Shown here: piece after piece, positions 14,958 through 19,851 of the stretch
Position numbering within the stretch: position 1 is the stretch's first letter
Layout: every line of letters starts with the position of its first letter
Origin: Thiomicrorhabdus arctica DSM 13458
GTDB taxonomy: Bacteria; Pseudomonadota; Gammaproteobacteria; Thiomicrospirales; Thiomicrospiraceae
Reading direction: 5' to 3'
Assembly: GCF_000381085.1 (NCBI RefSeq)
Contig: NZ_KB905899.1
Location: 1,612,001 to 1,676,000, forward strand
Length of the DNA stretch: 64,000 nt
Translations under genes and position numbers: made by a program
The notes under the pieces: generated by a model
The model's database searches: none
Told to the model about the DNA's origin: nothing
What the model saw: only the letters and a program-made list of their open reading frames with translations

Positions 14958-15115
14958 CGACTTCAACCTTTAGTCACTAACGACCCTGACTCAACTTGTT
15001 CAGTTGAGTGCAGTGCAGAATATTTTAACAATGCAGCGCTCTTCTTAGTTATTTTCCACACTTTCTTAAATGACACAGAGTCTTCGTGGTGACTGATTAA
15101 ACTCAATAAAGCTAA

Positions 15116-15171
15116 CCGTCACAAAGCTGTTATACAAGCTTCACATTTTGTTCAACTAAACCTTTTATGAT
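15116..15171 (+). promoter_or_regulatory. Pho-box array and -10 element of the lipid-remodelling operon
   Basis: CCGTCAC-AAAG-CTGTTAT (15116-15133) matches the 18-bp PhoB box consensus at about 15 of 18 positions. It is followed at the same 11-bp spacing by two weaker half-sites, GCTTCAC (15138-15144) and TGTTCAA (15149-15155). A TATGAT -10 element (15166-15171) lies ten bases after the last half-site, the geometry of PhoB-activated promoters lacking a -35. The sequence match is direct; PhoB control is inferred. Confidence 0.75.
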
Positions 15172-15216
15172 GATTCAAAACAAGCTACTTAGCTAGAACA
15201 ATCAAAAGGGAATAAA

Positions 15217-16503
15217 ATGCCTGCCAGCATGCCAACGATGGAACAACCCTCTAACCCGCAAACTAAAACCAAAATGCTTTTAGATTCGGCCGTGAACAAC
15301 ACCTCTATTTTTAGCCGAAAAGGGTTATTAGACAGGTTGTTTACAACGTGGTTTGACCGTTTAGTGTATCCGCAAATCTGGGAAGATCCGGAAGTGGATA
15401 TTCAGGCCCTTAAATTGAATAGCCAATCGCGCATATTCACAATCTCTTCAGGGGGGTGTAACGCCCTTAATTATCTTACAGAGCATCCTGAATCGATCAC
15501 CGTTGTCGATTTAAATGAAGCCCACATCGCCTTGATTAAACTCAAACTAACAGCGATTAAACATCTGCCTGATCAAATCGCCTTTTTTGATTTTTTCGGC
15601 AAGGCTGATTTAAAGAAAAACTTAGATCGTTACCATGCTGACATTAAGCCAAACCTTGATGAAAAAACCTTAGCCTATTGGGAAGCTAAATCTTCTTATT
15701 TCGGCAAAAAACGCATCACTCAATTTACCGATGGCTTTTATCGTCATGGTTTGCTTGGCCAGTTTATCGGCTTGATTCACTGGCTGAGTAAACGCCAAGG
15801 TTATGATATTTCCAAAGTCATGCAGGCACAGAACCTTAAAGATCAACAAACGCTATTCGACCGTCATGTCGCACCTGTATTTGAAACGCGTCTGGTCAAG
15901 TTTTTGTGTCATCGCCCCATCGTCATGTATAGCTTGGGTATTCCGCCTGCACAGTTTGAAGAGATGCATCACGAATCTAAACAAGACCGTCAAGGCATGC
16001 ATGACTTACTCAAAGAACGCGCTCGCCGATTAGCTTGTGACTTCCCGCTTAAAGATAATTACTTTGCTTGGCAAGCCTTTAACCGCTCGTATGACATTGT
16101 CCACAGAGAAGCCGTACCTCGCTACTTAAAAACAAATCAGTTCAACACCTTGCAATTAGAACAAGACAAAGTGCATGTCTTCCACCAATCCATGACCGAG
16201 CGCTTAAAGGCCATGCCGGCTCAAAGCCTCAATGCCTATCTCTTTTTAGATGCACAAGACTGGATGGATGCGCAGCAGTTAACCGAGCTCTGGCAAGAGG
16301 TAAATCGTACCGCAATGACGAATGCCCGAGTGGTTTTTAGAACTGCTGGAACCACCTCGCCATTAGAAGAAAAACTGCCCGCAAACCTTCTGCAAAACTG
16401 GTATACAGATTCTTTACAAAATGAGCTCTGGACCCGTCAGGATCGCTCTGCAATCTACGGGGGTGTTTTTGCCTACTACCTGATTGATGAGCCGGACATT
16501 TAA
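15217..16503 (+). CDS. btaA: BtaA-like 3-amino-3-carboxypropyl transferase (DUF3419)
   Basis: Resembles BtaA, which transfers the aminocarboxypropyl group of S-adenosylmethionine to diacylglycerol to make diacylglyceryl-homoserine, the first step of betaine lipid synthesis. The 428 residues contain the family's YPQIWEDPEVD motif (about 49-59), the SAM-binding SSGGCNAL (about 77-84) and VVDLNEAH. AAGGGA six bases before the ATG supports the start. It is the first gene of a three-gene operon with a GNAT-like protein and a PlcP-like phosphoesterase, behind a Pho-box array. The usual second gene, btaB (N-methyltransferase), is not adjacent, so the final lipid is uncertain. btaA is assigned by family resemblance. 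Confidence 0.82.
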   Translation: MPASMPTMEQPSNPQTKTKMLLDSAVNNTSIFSRKGLLDRLFTTWFDRLVYPQIWEDPEVDIQALKLNSQSRIFTISSGGCNALNYLTEHPESITVVDLNEAHIALIKLKLTAIKHLPDQIAFFDFFGKADLKKNLDRYHADIKPNLDEKTLAYWEAKSSYFGKKRITQFTDGFYRHGLLGQFIGLIHWLSKRQGYDISKVMQAQNLKDQQTLFDRHVAPVFETRLVKFLCHRPIVMYSLGIPPAQFEEMHHESKQDRQGMHDLLKERARRLACDFPLKDNYFAWQAFNRSYDIVHREAVPRYLKTNQFNTLQLEQDKVHVFHQSMTERLKAMPAQSLNAYLFLDAQDWMDAQQLTELWQEVNRTAMTNARVVFRTAGTTSPLEEKLPANLLQNWYTDSLQNELWTRQDRSAIYGGVFAYYLIDEPDI

Positions 16504-16571
16504 ATGACGCAAACGTTGTTCAAAATTAGCCCTCAACTTTACCTTCGATACCCCAATAAGAAGCTCAAAAC

Positions 16572-17687
16572 ATGCCCCTACCCTCTTCCGAAATAAAATG
16601 GTTTCCAGCTCAAGCCTTTGTCATTGGCTTAGAAGCCATGCAATGCCATCAACCGCCCAAAGCGATTAGAAACGTACAGACCGAGTTGGATAGTATCTGT
16701 ATTGAGGAGCATGTTATTCCGTTGACTCGTAATCTTCATGAATACAATAATAGCTATGTATGTTCGCCTTATACGGCATATATCCGCTACGCTCGTGATG
16801 AGCTCGGTTTGATAGATAATCAAGCCTTACGTTTGGGGTTACGTGCATTGATTACCTTGGCCTCTGGTCTTTTGCGTTTAGGACAAATAAACCAGACGCT
16901 TTCAATCAATAACTGGTTATTTTCCACCAACATTGTGCCAAATTGGCAAGCAGAAAGCGTGCGTCAGTTTACCCAGCAGTTGGCATCCAAAAACCCTACG
17001 CACAGTTTATCCATTCGTTCTTTAAACCAAGAAACCAATGCTGAACTGATGCAAATCCTCACCGCGAATGGCTGGCAACTTCTGCCTGCTCGTCAGGTAT
17101 ACCTATTTTTACAAGGTGGCCAGGCCTGGTGGAAAAAGAATAATGTCCAAAATGACCAACGGCTATTACGCAAAACAGAATTCACTTTAATCCAACCGAT
17201 CGAACATAACAGTCCTGATTTTGAAGCCATCGAAACGTGCTTTAACCAACTGTTTATCGAAAAACACTCGACACTTAATCCCCAATTTAGTGCGGAATAT
17301 TTTGAATTCTTACATAATCATAAACTGGTAGAGTTTTTCAGTTTTAGAAATGCTGAAGGTAGAATCATCGCCAGCATTGGACTGTTTACGCAACATGGAC
17401 TGATTACGGCTCCCATCCTAGGTTACGACACCGATTTACCGCAAAAATTAGGACTCTATCGCCTGTTGATTGCAATCCTTCTCAAAGAAACGCATCATCG
17501 CCAACAATCACTAAACCTAAGTTCTGGAGCAGGTGATTTCAAAAGACAAAGAGGTGGCAAACCCGTGGTCGAATACACTGCACTCTATACCAACCACCTC
17601 CCCTGGTTAACGCGCATCATCCTCAAAAGCTTCAGTAAGCTGCTTAACAAATTTGCACCCGAATTCTTACAAAAACACCAGCTTTAA
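16572..17687 (+). CDS. GNAT-like protein of the BtaA/phosphoesterase operon
   Basis: A 371-residue soluble protein without a clear named match. The C-terminal half (about 215-345) has the look of a GNAT or FemAB-type acyltransferase: a beta-strand SIGLFTQHGLI, the turn PILGYDTDLPQKLGLYRLL, and SSGAGDFKRQRGG, where GAGDFKRQRGG resembles the acceptor region of 'GNAT family' peptidoglycan-bridge-like proteins. The N-terminal half is unassigned. It lies 68 bases after the BtaA-like gene and 46 bases before the phosphoesterase, all on the plus strand. It may modify the homoserine headgroup or its acyl chains; that is inference. A near copy of the palindrome lies inside it (17121-17130). Confidence 0.6.
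   Translation: MPLPSSEIKWFPAQAFVIGLEAMQCHQPPKAIRNVQTELDSICIEEHVIPLTRNLHEYNNSYVCSPYTAYIRYARDELGLIDNQALRLGLRALITLASGLLRLGQINQTLSINNWLFSTNIVPNWQAESVRQFTQQLASKNPTHSLSIRSLNQETNAELMQILTANGWQLLPARQVYLFLQGGQAWWKKNNVQNDQRLLRKTEFTLIQPIEHNSPDFEAIETCFNQLFIEKHSTLNPQFSAEYFEFLHNHKLVEFFSFRNAEGRIIASIGLFTQHGLITAPILGYDTDLPQKLGLYRLLIAILLKETHHRQQSLNLSSGAGDFKRQRGGKPVVEYTALYTNHLPWLTRIILKSFSKLLNKFAPEFLQKHQL
17121..17130. repeat. CCAGGCCTGG core inside the GNAT-like gene
   Basis: Ten-base core of the repeated palindrome (flanks G and T, one mismatch to the 12-mer), encoding Gln-Ala-Trp. Confidence 0.7.
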
Positions 17688-17733
17688 GGGTTATCAAAGC
17701 TTGATTTATTCATTGCAGAAAGGTAACAACAAT

Positions 17734-18591
17734 ATGAATACAGAACATCCCGCTTGGATGATGATACAAGAGACATTGAACACACCTCAAATGCCTCAAA
17801 TGCCTCAAAACGAACAGAATAAAACGACTAAAAAGCACTACCGAACCATATGGATATCCGATACACATTTAGGCTCTAAAGGATGTAAAGCAGAGTTTTT
17901 AAGCGATTTTCTAAAGCAACATGATTGTGAACATTTGATTTTAGTCGGGGATATCATTGACGGCTGGCGCATGCGCAAAAAAGTATTTTGGCCGCAGTCG
18001 CACACCAATGCGATTCGCAGACTTTTAACTATGGCAAAACGAGACACGCAAATCGTCTATATCACCGGCAACCATGATGATATGTTACGTCGATATTCCG
18101 GCATCGAGTTCGGTAACATTAAGTTGGTCGATGAATATGTCCATCACACGGCAGATGGCAAACGCTTATGGTGTATTCATGGCGATCAATTTGATGGTGT
18201 TGTCCAGTGCCATCGGTGGATTGCTTTTTTTGGCGATTGGCTTTATGAGACTGTTTTGCATTTTAATCGCTGGTTTAACCAACTTCGTCACCGTTTTGGG
18301 TTTGGTTACTGGTCTCTATCTGCCTACTTAAAGGGTAAGGTTAAACGGGCGGTCAATTTCATCTCAGCCTTTGAAGAGGCGGTGGCTAAATCTGCACATG
18401 AAAAAACTATGGACGGCGTTATCTGCGGACATATCCATCATGCCGAAATTCGTACTTTGGAAAACGGCGTCACTTACTATAATTGTGGTGATTGGGTTGA
18501 ATCCTGTACCGCGCTAGTAGAAGACTTTGAAGGCAATATCAAACTTATTCAATGGGTTAAAATTGACCATGTGCAATCGTTGTCGACTTAA
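17734..18591 (+). CDS. Calcineurin-like metallophosphoesterase (PlcP/LpxH-like)
   Basis: A 285-residue phosphoesterase with the full two-metal motif set: SDTHLG (about 41-46), GDIIDGW (about 72), GNHDDM (about 112), IHGDQFD (about 148) and GHIHHAE (about 232). This subgroup is often named UDP-2,3-diacylglucosamine diphosphatase, but it also contains PlcP, the phospholipase C that removes phosphate headgroups during phosphate starvation. The operon with a BtaA-like gene and a Pho box favours the PlcP reading: it would supply diacylglycerol to BtaA. The ATG at 17734 follows AAAGG. The N-terminal 30 residues are disordered, with a short repeated TPQMPQMPQ. Confidence 0.8.
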   Translation: MNTEHPAWMMIQETLNTPQMPQMPQNEQNKTTKKHYRTIWISDTHLGSKGCKAEFLSDFLKQHDCEHLILVGDIIDGWRMRKKVFWPQSHTNAIRRLLTMAKRDTQIVYITGNHDDMLRRYSGIEFGNIKLVDEYVHHTADGKRLWCIHGDQFDGVVQCHRWIAFFGDWLYETVLHFNRWFNQLRHRFGFGYWSLSAYLKGKVKRAVNFISAFEEAVAKSAHEKTMDGVICGHIHHAEIRTLENGVTYYNCGDWVESCTALVEDFEGNIKLIQWVKIDHVQSLST

Positions 18592-18653
18592 TTTTTTCAA
18601 GACTATTTAATTCGTGGCGTTTAAACCACCCATCTAAAGCGTATTAACCTCAC

Positions 18654-18693
18654 AAAAAGTCCATATTCAGTAGGATATAAATTGGACTTTTTT
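18654..18693 (+). terminator. Terminator of the BtaA-like operon
   Basis: AAAAAGTCCA (18654-18663) pairs with TGGACTTTTT (18683-18692) across a 19-base loop that can pair further. It ends with a T run. It separates the operon from the exonuclease gene. Confidence 0.75.
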
Positions 18694-18774: not shown

Positions 18775-19851
18775 ATGAGTAATGCACAGCTAATTCTGAT
18801 CGACAAACGTAATCAACCTTTAAAAGAGTATCTTGTGGCCGTTGCCGCTTCGGATGGCCTGAATATTAAAGGTGTTGAAATCATGGCCTCACCCGCTAAA
18901 GGTGAAAAATCCTTATTGAATGCGGCCATCGTCATTCCCCCTTTAGAAGCGTTTGATTTCAATGTTCCAAAATTAGTTGATGCGTGTTTAAAACAACTCA
19001 TGATTGGTGAAGAAGCCCACGAAATTGCCGAGTTTATTCAAAAATGTTCAGCCGATGAAGTCGTGCAAACCGCCTTAACGAAGTCTCTACCTAAATTGCG
19101 TAAAAAACTTGAACTCTTAATGAAGGATTTCTGTCAATCAGACGTGATCGACCTCCTTAAAGAGCGCCGTAATGATGCTTTATATAAGCTTAAACAACAT
19201 GAGGTTGAGCTTAAGGGCAAAAACGTTGTCTGTATCGATATTGAAGCAACCAATGTTTCAACCCACCCAGAAGCCGATATCATTCAAATCTCTGCCTGTG
19301 ACATCCATGGCAAAGAGTTGTTTAATCAGTTAATTGATCCGGGCTATGAAATCCCTGAAAATGAAAAACACAATATCACGACCGAAATGGTGCAAGGTGC
19401 GCCTTCTCTGGTTGAAGCTTGGGATCAAATTCACGATGTTTTGCAAAATGCAGATATCGTGCTCGCATACAGCACCGAAAGTGATTATATGTACCTTGAA
19501 AAAGCGGCCGAGAAGAAGATGCTTAAATTTGAACTCGACTATAATGACTGGCTAGATGCTGCCGAATTAAGTAAAGACCTTATGGGTGCATTGCGTTGGC
19601 ATAGTGAAAAAATGTACTGGTTCTACAAAACACCAAAATTGACCATGGCCTATGAAAAAGCATTAGCAAAACCTTTCCCGGGTGATGCGCACGATGCCCT
19701 TGCCGATGCTCGCGCTACAGTAGAGTTGTTTAATGCCATGTTAGAAAAAGGTAAACTCTCACAAGTCGCTCAGAAAAAAGCCAAAGTAAACAGCAACCTA
19801 ATCACTAACAACCCTTTTGCGGCGGCTTTTGCAGCGGCAAAAGGGCAATAG
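18775..19851 (+). CDS. DEDDh 3'-5' exonuclease (DnaQ/RNase T fold)
   Basis: A 358-residue protein with an exonuclease domain from about residue 147 to 330. The DEDDh residues are visible: Asp and Glu in CIDIEATN (about 154-156), Asp in STESDYMYL, and His and Asp in HDALADARA (about 305-311). The first 145 residues form a domain I do not recognise, and the last 25 end in an Ala/Phe-rich tail. It may act in DNA repair or RNA trimming; the substrate is not clear. It lies 17 bases before hisI and probably shares its transcript. Confidence 0.75.
   Translation: MSNAQLILIDKRNQPLKEYLVAVAASDGLNIKGVEIMASPAKGEKSLLNAAIVIPPLEAFDFNVPKLVDACLKQLMIGEEAHEIAEFIQKCSADEVVQTALTKSLPKLRKKLELLMKDFCQSDVIDLLKERRNDALYKLKQHEVELKGKNVVCIDIEATNVSTHPEADIIQISACDIHGKELFNQLIDPGYEIPENEKHNITTEMVQGAPSLVEAWDQIHDVLQNADIVLAYSTESDYMYLEKAAEKKMLKFELDYNDWLDAAELSKDLMGALRWHSEKMYWFYKTPKLTMAYEKALAKPFPGDAHDALADARATVELFNAMLEKGKLSQVAQKKAKVNSNLITNNPFAAAFAAAKGQ

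Follow-up and report, generated by a model that had tools for sequence, protein, structure and literature searches.

We examine here a three-gene operon of Thiomicrorhabdus arctica DSM 13458, located in a stretch of 64,000 nt (C1:1612001-1676000 of the 2.55 Mb genome), which we call the window. The operon appears to be controlled by PhoB and to serve the synthesis of a phosphorus-free lipid. Within it, the second open reading frame (ORF2) would complete the lipid made by the BtaA-type enzyme of ORF1, most likely with an amino acid taken from aminoacyl-tRNA. The probability of this reading is, in our estimate, about 0.5. ORF2 stands beside BtaA at the position which the methyltransferase BtaB holds in other lineages. 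The elements of the locus, in coordinates of the window, are the following:

15116-15155, + strand: Pho-box array of four 7-bp half-sites at 11-bp spacing (from sequence, scan score and conservation)
15116-15122, + strand: half-site CCGTCAC (sequence)
15127-15133, + strand: half-site CTGTTAT (sequence)
15138-15144, + strand: half-site GCTTCAC (sequence)
15149-15155, + strand: half-site TGTTCAA (sequence)
15166-15171, + strand: -10 element TATGAT, 10 bp past the fourth half-site (sequence)
15217-16503, + strand: ORF1, btaA, predicted S-adenosylmethionine (SAM):diacylglycerol 3-amino-3-carboxypropyl transferase of the DUF3419 family (PF11899 match)
16572-17687, + strand: ORF2, double-GNAT FemX/MprF-like transferase at the position of BtaB, predicted diacylglyceryl-homoserine (DGHS) aminoacyltransferase (AlphaFold2 (AF2) model, fold matches and linkage)
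17734-18591, + strand: ORF3, plcP, predicted phospholipase C-like metallophosphoesterase making diacylglycerol (Metallophos match and identities)
18654-18692, + strand: terminator-like hairpin with a U-rich 3′ arm (RNA fold of -11.9 kcal/mol, z -3.06)

In the list of open reading frames the three genes are co-directional and the hairpin follows them. A preliminary description of this DNA, made from the sequence, had already placed a Pho half-site array and a -10 element before three genes and a terminator. Its coordinates are correct, the array is conserved in relatives and the hairpin folds with the z value given above. The hairpin is not among the terminators listed by a simple terminator scan, and no sigma-70 promoter is listed by scan within 15000-15216.

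BtaB is an N-methyltransferase which acts on DGHS and trimethylates its amine to give diacylglyceryl-trimethylhomoserine (DGTS). In the bacteria known to make DGTS, its synthesis requires BtaA and BtaB (PMC4796936). A search with one Rhizobium BtaB sequence as query found no BtaB in 62 genomes of the family, the best match being 36.7 bits, at the level of generic methyltransferases. In the T. arctica genome the best match is partial and reaches 24.9 bits over residues 41-162. The same query detects BtaB proteins of 31-36% identity beside BtaA in other lineages, so that a BtaB adjoining BtaA would have been detected here, while a distant and diverged one could escape. It also found none in 22 loci from named genomes in which BtaA and ORF2 adjoin. 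Since BtaB was not found, the pathway as known would end at DGHS.

The position is filled by ORF2. BtaA is present in 33 of the 62 family genomes and ORF2 in the same 33; these genomes are relatives of one another, and the co-occurrence counts do not represent 62 independent cases. In all 33 loci read from 32 other genomes of the family, ORF2 is the next gene downstream of btaA on the same strand. With start codons assigned by script, the gap between the two does not exceed 30 nt in 30 of these loci, and in 10 the genes abut or overlap; in the window the gap measures 68 nt. The plcP gene lies downstream on the same strand in 15 of the 33 loci, downstream on the opposite strand in five, upstream on the opposite strand in five and outside the fetched stretch in eight. 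The identical set of 33 genomes and the 33/33 adjacency rule out that ORF2 is an incidental neighbour.

Outside the family, in 185 genomes of the class and 299 of the phylum, 33 loci besides that of the window carry BtaA with more than 300 bits. BtaB lies within 1.5 kb in 32 of them, ORF2 in one (G118, where ORF2 is cut by the contig end) and both in none. Matches to DUF3419 of 211-231 bits (L167-L169), which have neither partner nearby, and weaker fragments (L170-L172, L195, L196) were not counted as full-length BtaA. The ORF2 profile matched three of the 185 class genomes: the window's own, G118 and, in broken pieces, G088. In a tree of 72 BtaA sequences (L064, cut at its start, was excluded) the 39 ORF2-linked proteins fall on one side of a branch with a Shimodaira-Hasegawa-like approximate likelihood ratio test (SH-aLRT) value of 89, among the 33 BtaB-linked proteins. 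This topology fits one exchange of partner, with moderate support and long branches present. That ORF2 would have come to stand in place of BtaB beside BtaA in this lineage is well supported by these sequence comparisons. As to G088, six ORF2-like fragments lie on both strands at C9:25514-27481 (L199-L204), one of them with several in-frame stops; they are broken or recoded copies, in a genome without a BtaA match.

The assignment of ORF1 is based on a match to PF11899 (DUF3419) of 335.2 bits, with a cut-off of 28.2, covering profile positions 4-382 of 385. In alignment the protein is 41% identical to a DUF3419 protein of Rhizobium leguminosarum encoded beside a SAM methyltransferase gene. The stretches WEDP, SGGCN, DLN and NYFAWQAF are invariant in 10 BtaA sequences, including the BtaB-linked one of R. 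leguminosarum. The AF2 model of ORF1, with a predicted local distance difference test (pLDDT) value of 83.2, bears a weak resemblance to SAM-dependent methyltransferases (best E 2.4e-3). A Foldseek search with this model gave no match at E ≤0.001, and a search of PDB sequences with ORF1 gave nothing credible. By sequence, ORF1 is a member of the BtaA family and is predicted to transfer the 3-amino-3-carboxypropyl group of SAM to diacylglycerol.

ORF3 matches Metallophos with 43 bits. Over 239 residues it shares 62% identity with a protein from a Pseudomonas plasmid encoded beside a glycosyltransferase, and over 255 residues 45% with a Sinorhizobium meliloti protein (L213) encoded beside an N-acyl-homoserine lactone (AHL) synthase and a LuxR-type gene, which we take to be the characterised PlcP. 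The PlcP of S. meliloti is active on phosphatidylethanolamine (PE) and phosphatidylcholine (PC) (PMC4796936). A search of PDB sequences with ORF3 returned nothing credible. Public annotation would suggest another enzyme: such proteins are called UDP-2,3-diacylglucosamine diphosphatase in 20 of the 25 rows listed, and were ORF3 the LpxH of this organism, the locus would be unrelated to phosphate-saving lipids. However, ORF3 scores only 27 bits against the LpxH model TIGR01854, the cut-off of which is 190.35, and a separate true LpxH is encoded at C1:748645 with 232 bits. Identity to the LpxH of Escherichia coli, the only LpxH aligned, is 26% over 125 residues, versus the 62% and 45% to PlcP-type proteins. 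The conserved Pho boxes upstream and the gene neighbourhoods of plcP in relatives, described below, also speak against LpxH. ORF3 is closer in sequence to PlcP than to LpxH; the identification with LpxH is ruled out by these scores, and we give next to no credence to an unrelated locus.

PlcP is found in 43 of the 62 family genomes, namely every one of the 33 that carry BtaA and 10 of the 29 that do not. In seven of the eight BtaA-less loci read, which come from eight of these 10 genomes, plcP is adjoined by an agt-like glycosyltransferase gene, the products of which are 44-47% identical to the Pseudomonas glycosyltransferase (L227-L233; G052, G054, G006, G009, G055, G056, G059). Being found beside either BtaA or an agt-like gene, PlcP is partnered by a diacylglycerol-using head-group enzyme of one kind or the other. 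On the Pseudomonas aeruginosa plasmid pHPA0698-2 (L214), a plcP-type gene, annotated as UDP-2,3-diacylglucosamine diphosphatase, and a glycosyltransferase gene are adjacent. Downstream of the operon in the window lies an exonuclease gene (18775-19851). In L227 the plcP-agt pair precedes an exonuclease gene whose start resembles it when compared by eye, and in L226 (G051) a plcP gene product 80% identical to that of the window over 244 residues is likewise encoded before such an exonuclease gene; the 8 kb stretch of L226 holds no match to BtaA, ORF2 or Agt.

The case for PhoB control was examined with a score that counts matches to the consensus CTGTMAY in each half-site, with a maximum of 21 for three half-sites. 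The array at 15116 attains 16/21; on both strands of the 64-kb window no position scores higher and one other ties. Scored over two half-sites, the array is equalled at two other positions and exceeded at none, while over four half-sites two positions are higher and four others tie. When the 160 upstream bases are shuffled by dinucleotides, approximately one shuffle in 200 attains the three-half-site score. As positive control we used a 15 kb stretch of the same genome with pstS, phoR, phoB, phoU, pstB, pstA and a PstC-like gene (193.7 bits, slightly below the cut-off of 196.45). Its top matches are found directly in front of pstS, with 18/21, and directly in front of the PstC-like gene, with 16/21 on the - strand, the latter site being accompanied by one on the + strand, also of 16/21.

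In relatives, a score of at least 15/21 occurs upstream of btaA in 31 of 32 regions, namely the window and 31 loci of relatives (L057 and L059 come from one genome, G034; L061 and L064 were excluded, as their upstream sequence is wanting). The background for this score is 77 of 2000 random 200-mers from the same loci. On the reverse strand nine of the 32 regions reach it, and among 99 btaA coding stretches one does. Of 10 regions upstream of a plcP gene on the opposite strand, nine score at least 15/21, the region being shared with btaA in L039 and L043. The five Vogesella-type loci (four Vogesella and one beta-proteobacterium) all do so, in a count without matched random control. In profile searches PhoB of this genome scores 319.8 bits against a cut-off of 296.2, and PhoR is also above its cut-off. 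The presence of PhoB and the conserved Pho box upstream support, at the level of sequence, that the operon would be under Pho control.

The preliminary description had proposed Pho-controlled, phosphate-saving remodelling by a BtaA-like enzyme, a GNAT-like protein and a PlcP-like phosphoesterase, with DGHS as the outcome. Much of this stands: the BtaA-like enzyme is borne out by the full-length PF11899 match, the PlcP-like one does not group with LpxH, and the core pathway with its Pho boxes agrees with the sequence data. The missing BtaB was overlooked, and the GNAT-like protein, correct as to fold, was not recognised as the constant partner of BtaA which probably sets the head group.

What ORF2 might do is suggested by its fold. 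The AF2 model, built from 54 sequences, has a pLDDT of 94.5. Foldseek places the aminoacyl-tRNA-dependent peptide synthases Sbb17 and Sba18 first, and MprF, A-PGS and L-PGS take most of the next places, with TM-scores of ~0.45. In the VIA comparison, where rows within 1 Z of each other are regarded as tied, ORF2 matches FemX (Z 16.3, root-mean-square deviation (rmsd) 3.7, 268 residues aligned), Sbb17 (Z 16.2, rmsd 3.6, 246 aligned) and MprF (Z 14.6, rmsd 3.9, 242 aligned). Tandem GNATs follow with 7q3a (Z 14.2, rmsd 6.1, 250 aligned), VipF (14.0, 6.7, 216) and MshD (13.1, 5.9, 219), and N-myristoyltransferase (NMT) is found at Z 12.2 (5.5, 233). Over full-length matches, the aminoacyl-tRNA-dependent transferases superimpose at 3.5-4.5 Å, versus 5.3-7.2 Å for the tandem-GNAT acetyl- and acyltransferases. 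The ranking of these matches favours the tRNA-dependent group without deciding the question.

CoA-dependent GNAT enzymes as a rule have a coenzyme A (CoA) pyrophosphate loop of the pattern [QR]xxGx[GA] after strand 4; this pattern, used without positive control, is found at the expected place in neither domain of any of the 54 ORF2 sequences. F323 is present in 53 and K324 in all 54, within a pattern [FY]K..RG[GA] common to all. A comparable motif of FemX contains F304-K305 (residues numbered by counting along the alignment), a putative equivalence based on the motif and on a non-significant alignment. For K305 of FemX, and for K329 and F328 of DhpH-C, a catalytic or contributing role is described (PMC12945691). 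The C-terminal helix of ORF2 is net positive in 54/54 sequences, which would be compatible with contact with tRNA or membrane. ORF2 is ruled out as a member of the MprF family, as neither the 54 sequences, searched at E up to 1, nor the genome contain a match to PF09924 (LPG_synthase_C).

Taken as a pathway, the proposed process would comprise the following events. Low phosphate would activate PhoB, which would bind at 15116-15155. PlcP would then strip the phospho-headgroup from a phospholipid to leave diacylglycerol, onto which BtaA would move the 3-amino-3-carboxypropyl group of SAM, giving DGHS. In place of BtaB, ORF2 would finish this head group by transferring an amino acid from aminoacyl-tRNA to the free amine of DGHS through an amide bond. 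Amide transfer, the step we consider most likely, agrees with the fold, with the motif and with the lack of a CoA loop at its expected place. The resulting aminoacyl-DGHS would keep a free amine and a carboxylate and could thus be a zwitterionic or cationic, phosphorus-free stand-in for PE and PC. Precedent is provided by lysyl- and alanyl-diacylglycerol, phosphorus-free lipids from MprF-type enzymes (PMC10580965). That ORF2 acts on DGHS is, in our view, probable; that its donor is aminoacyl-tRNA is about an even bet. Somewhat short of even is the chance of the full proposal, in which aminoacylation of the DGHS amine would yield a new class of phosphorus-free DGHS lipids under phosphate starvation in the sulfur oxidisers Thiomicrorhabdus and Hydrogenovibrio as well as in Vogesella.

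Scanning of named genomes for ORF2 relatives yielded 429, and the best 80 were retained. In 22 of these best 80 of 429 loci BtaA adjoins ORF2, and the hosts are Thiomicrorhabdus, Hydrogenovibrio, other Thiotrichales and Piscirickettsiaceae bins, four Vogesella and one beta-proteobacterium. ORF2 relatives are also found in Paenibacillus, Pseudomonas, Shewanella and Planctomycetes, among others. The BtaA-linked proteins, together with one from locus L079, are split from 57 others by a branch with SH-aLRT 99; L077, with a BtaA truncated at the end of its contig, is counted here as BtaA-linked. Three columns (A/S173, F/Y228, H/Y232) differ consistently between 19 and 34 ORF2 sequences.

Several observations weigh against a tRNA-dependent ORF2 dedicated to DGHS. 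The fold is common to tandem-GNAT acetyltransferases as well, whose Z is lower by only 2; the C-terminal domain is matched well by single-domain CoA acetyltransferases, with Z ~13 and an rmsd of 2.1-4.8 over ~120-140 residues (in one example 2.3 Å over 126 residues). The CoA-loop pattern, with the limits mentioned above, occurs elsewhere in 11 of the 54 sequences, and two further helices are also mostly positive (50/54 and 49/54). Profile-profile comparison of the ORF2 family is not significant with a 3-sequence FemAB set (E 0.64) or a 5-sequence MprF set (E 0.53), and global and multi-alignment reruns were no better. Searches of PDB sequences with the ORF2 profile and with the single sequence gave nothing credible. 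The only Pfam links are to Acetyltransf_6 (32/54 sequences at E up to 1, best 3.8e-8, the protein of the window being below cut-off) and to FemAB_like (one relative, 2.6e-6); none of the 54 sequences matches PF02388 (FemAB) at E up to 1. Of the best 80 of 429 loci, 58 lack BtaA, and in 47 of these the ORF2 relative lies beside a KASIII-like gene, a neighbour that may point to an acyl donor. Lastly, the close relative in L079 (55% identity, L079:6093-7181) has no BtaA beside it.

Some of these points would suit an acyl-CoA- or acyl-ACP-dependent (acyl carrier protein) N-acyltransferase, the product of which would be an N-acylated or N-acetylated DGHS, anionic and phosphorus-free, by analogy with the OlsB aminolipids. 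Such a donor would agree with the GNAT fold and with the tandem-GNAT, single-domain and N-myristoyltransferase matches; the KASIII-like neighbours and the OleD-like reductase in their clusters likewise suggest long-chain acyl chemistry. However, the CoA loop is absent at its expected place in both domains, the full-length fit to aminoacyl-tRNA-dependent enzymes has the lower rmsd, and a search at E up to 1 finds in none of the 54 sequences the PF13444 domain that the aminolipid N-acyltransferases share (PMC11631085). The last result rules out an OlsB-type enzyme, and we regard the acyl reading as a whole as unlikely. It is less likely still that ordinary DGTS is made, with a methyltransferase elsewhere in the genome replacing BtaB and ORF2 in an accessory or regulatory role. 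The route from btaA, btaB and plcP to DGTS is known (PMC4796936), the genome holds generic methyltransferases, and a strongly diverged, distant BtaB could escape a query with one sequence. Yet BtaB adjoins BtaA in 32 of the 33 loci outside the family, the matches within it stay at the generic level, and the 33/33 adjacency of ORF2 would be left unexplained.

Slightly below this we place a pathway that ends with DGHS, while ORF2 has a different substrate within the same starvation response, e.g. a cell-wall precursor or other lipid. FemX-type enzymes do act on cell-wall precursors (PMC12945691). In contrast, ORF2 tracks BtaA exactly through the family and occupies the place which BtaB has elsewhere, whereas PlcP, a general component of that response, is also present in 10 family genomes without BtaA or ORF2. 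Aminoacylation of DGHS remains the reading we prefer.

The loci of ORF2 relatives without BtaA form a subject of their own. Those linked to KASIII belong mostly to one conserved cluster; of the others, eight have only ATP-grasp and/or Rieske genes and three none of the neighbours sought. A representative cluster encodes KASIII, an OleD-like reductase (200 bits, cut-off 580), a lactonase-like metallo-beta-lactamase (MBL), an F390-synthetase-related protein (over cut-off) and an ATP-grasp protein. This type of cluster (L066-L069, L071 and the 47 loci among L072-L151) is widespread and conserved, often with a Rieske gene, its hosts being Paenibacillus, Pseudomonas, Shewanella, Planctomycetes and others, and no description of it was found in the literature searched. 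In Shewanella (L102, L108, L109, L122) two ORF2-like genes flank the Rieske gene in the same cluster. On a Deinococcus plasmid (L070) the ORF2 relative directly follows an ATP-grasp protein (PRK06849 family) and the rest of the cluster is lacking; the two may form a minimal unit. The ORF2 relative of L079 adjoins HlyD, cytochrome b561 and a GGDEF-EAL protein on a contig assigned to a cyanobacterial bin, possibly through misbinning.

Pho control, PlcP with BtaA and PlcP with Agt are already known (PMC4796936). The operon has BtaA in common with the plcP-btaA-btaB cluster for DGTS of Phaeobacter sp. MED193 (PMC4796936) and would, as predicted, also share with it a non-phosphorus lipid that depends on PlcP and a response to phosphorus deficiency; plcP clusters likewise carry putative Pho boxes. 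That cluster has BtaB as second DGTS enzyme, whereas here BtaB was not found and ORF2 is in its place. With plcP-agt glycolipid remodelling (PMC4796936; also the pair in L214) it shares the combination of PlcP and a head-group enzyme using diacylglycerol, and plcP-agt itself occurs in BtaA-less relatives; the second enzyme there is a glycosyltransferase, here BtaA with ORF2.

The OlsB-type aminolipids are not known to have a diacylglycerol backbone. OlsB-type N-acyltransferases (PMC11631085) are, as ORF2 is predicted to be, GNAT-type enzymes of phosphorus-free amino-acid lipids, but the PF13444 domain is theirs and was not found in ORF2. The MprF/LysX aminoacyl lipid synthases, e.g. for lysyl-diacylglycerol (PMC10580965), share the GNAT-type catalytic domain and perform tRNA-dependent lipid aminoacylation, including that of a phosphorus-free lipid. 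Unlike them, ORF2 has no LPG_synthase_C match or membrane flippase domain, and their acceptors are phosphatidylglycerol (PG), diacylglycerol (DAG) and others, while the amine of DGHS is proposed here. The FemX/FemABX and Orf11-type transferases (Sbb17, Sba18; PMC12945691) are the best structural matches, have a Phe-Lys motif like that of ORF2 and carry out amide-forming transfer to an amine. However, their acceptors are peptidoglycan precursors or streptothrisamine, and their sequence similarity to ORF2 is not significant. No description of a BtaA pathway with a GNAT-like partner replacing BtaB was found in the literature searched, mostly without subscription papers, so that novelty is not proven; there is a real chance of a new lipid class.

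The btaA gene is regarded as an indicator that betaine lipid (DGTS) is made when phosphorus is short. If its partner has been exchanged, btaA alone is not predictive of DGTS, and betaine-lipid potential would be misread wherever btaA alone serves as marker gene. The claim is directly testable by mass spectrometry in culturable strains. If it is true, a finishing step from aminoacyl-tRNA would join the lipid aminoacylation known from MprF with the phosphorus-saving remodelling of BtaA and PlcP, and the translation machinery would be called upon for a bulk membrane lipid. Together with Vogesella, a family of sulfur-oxidising autotrophs would then make a lipid that has perhaps never been looked for.

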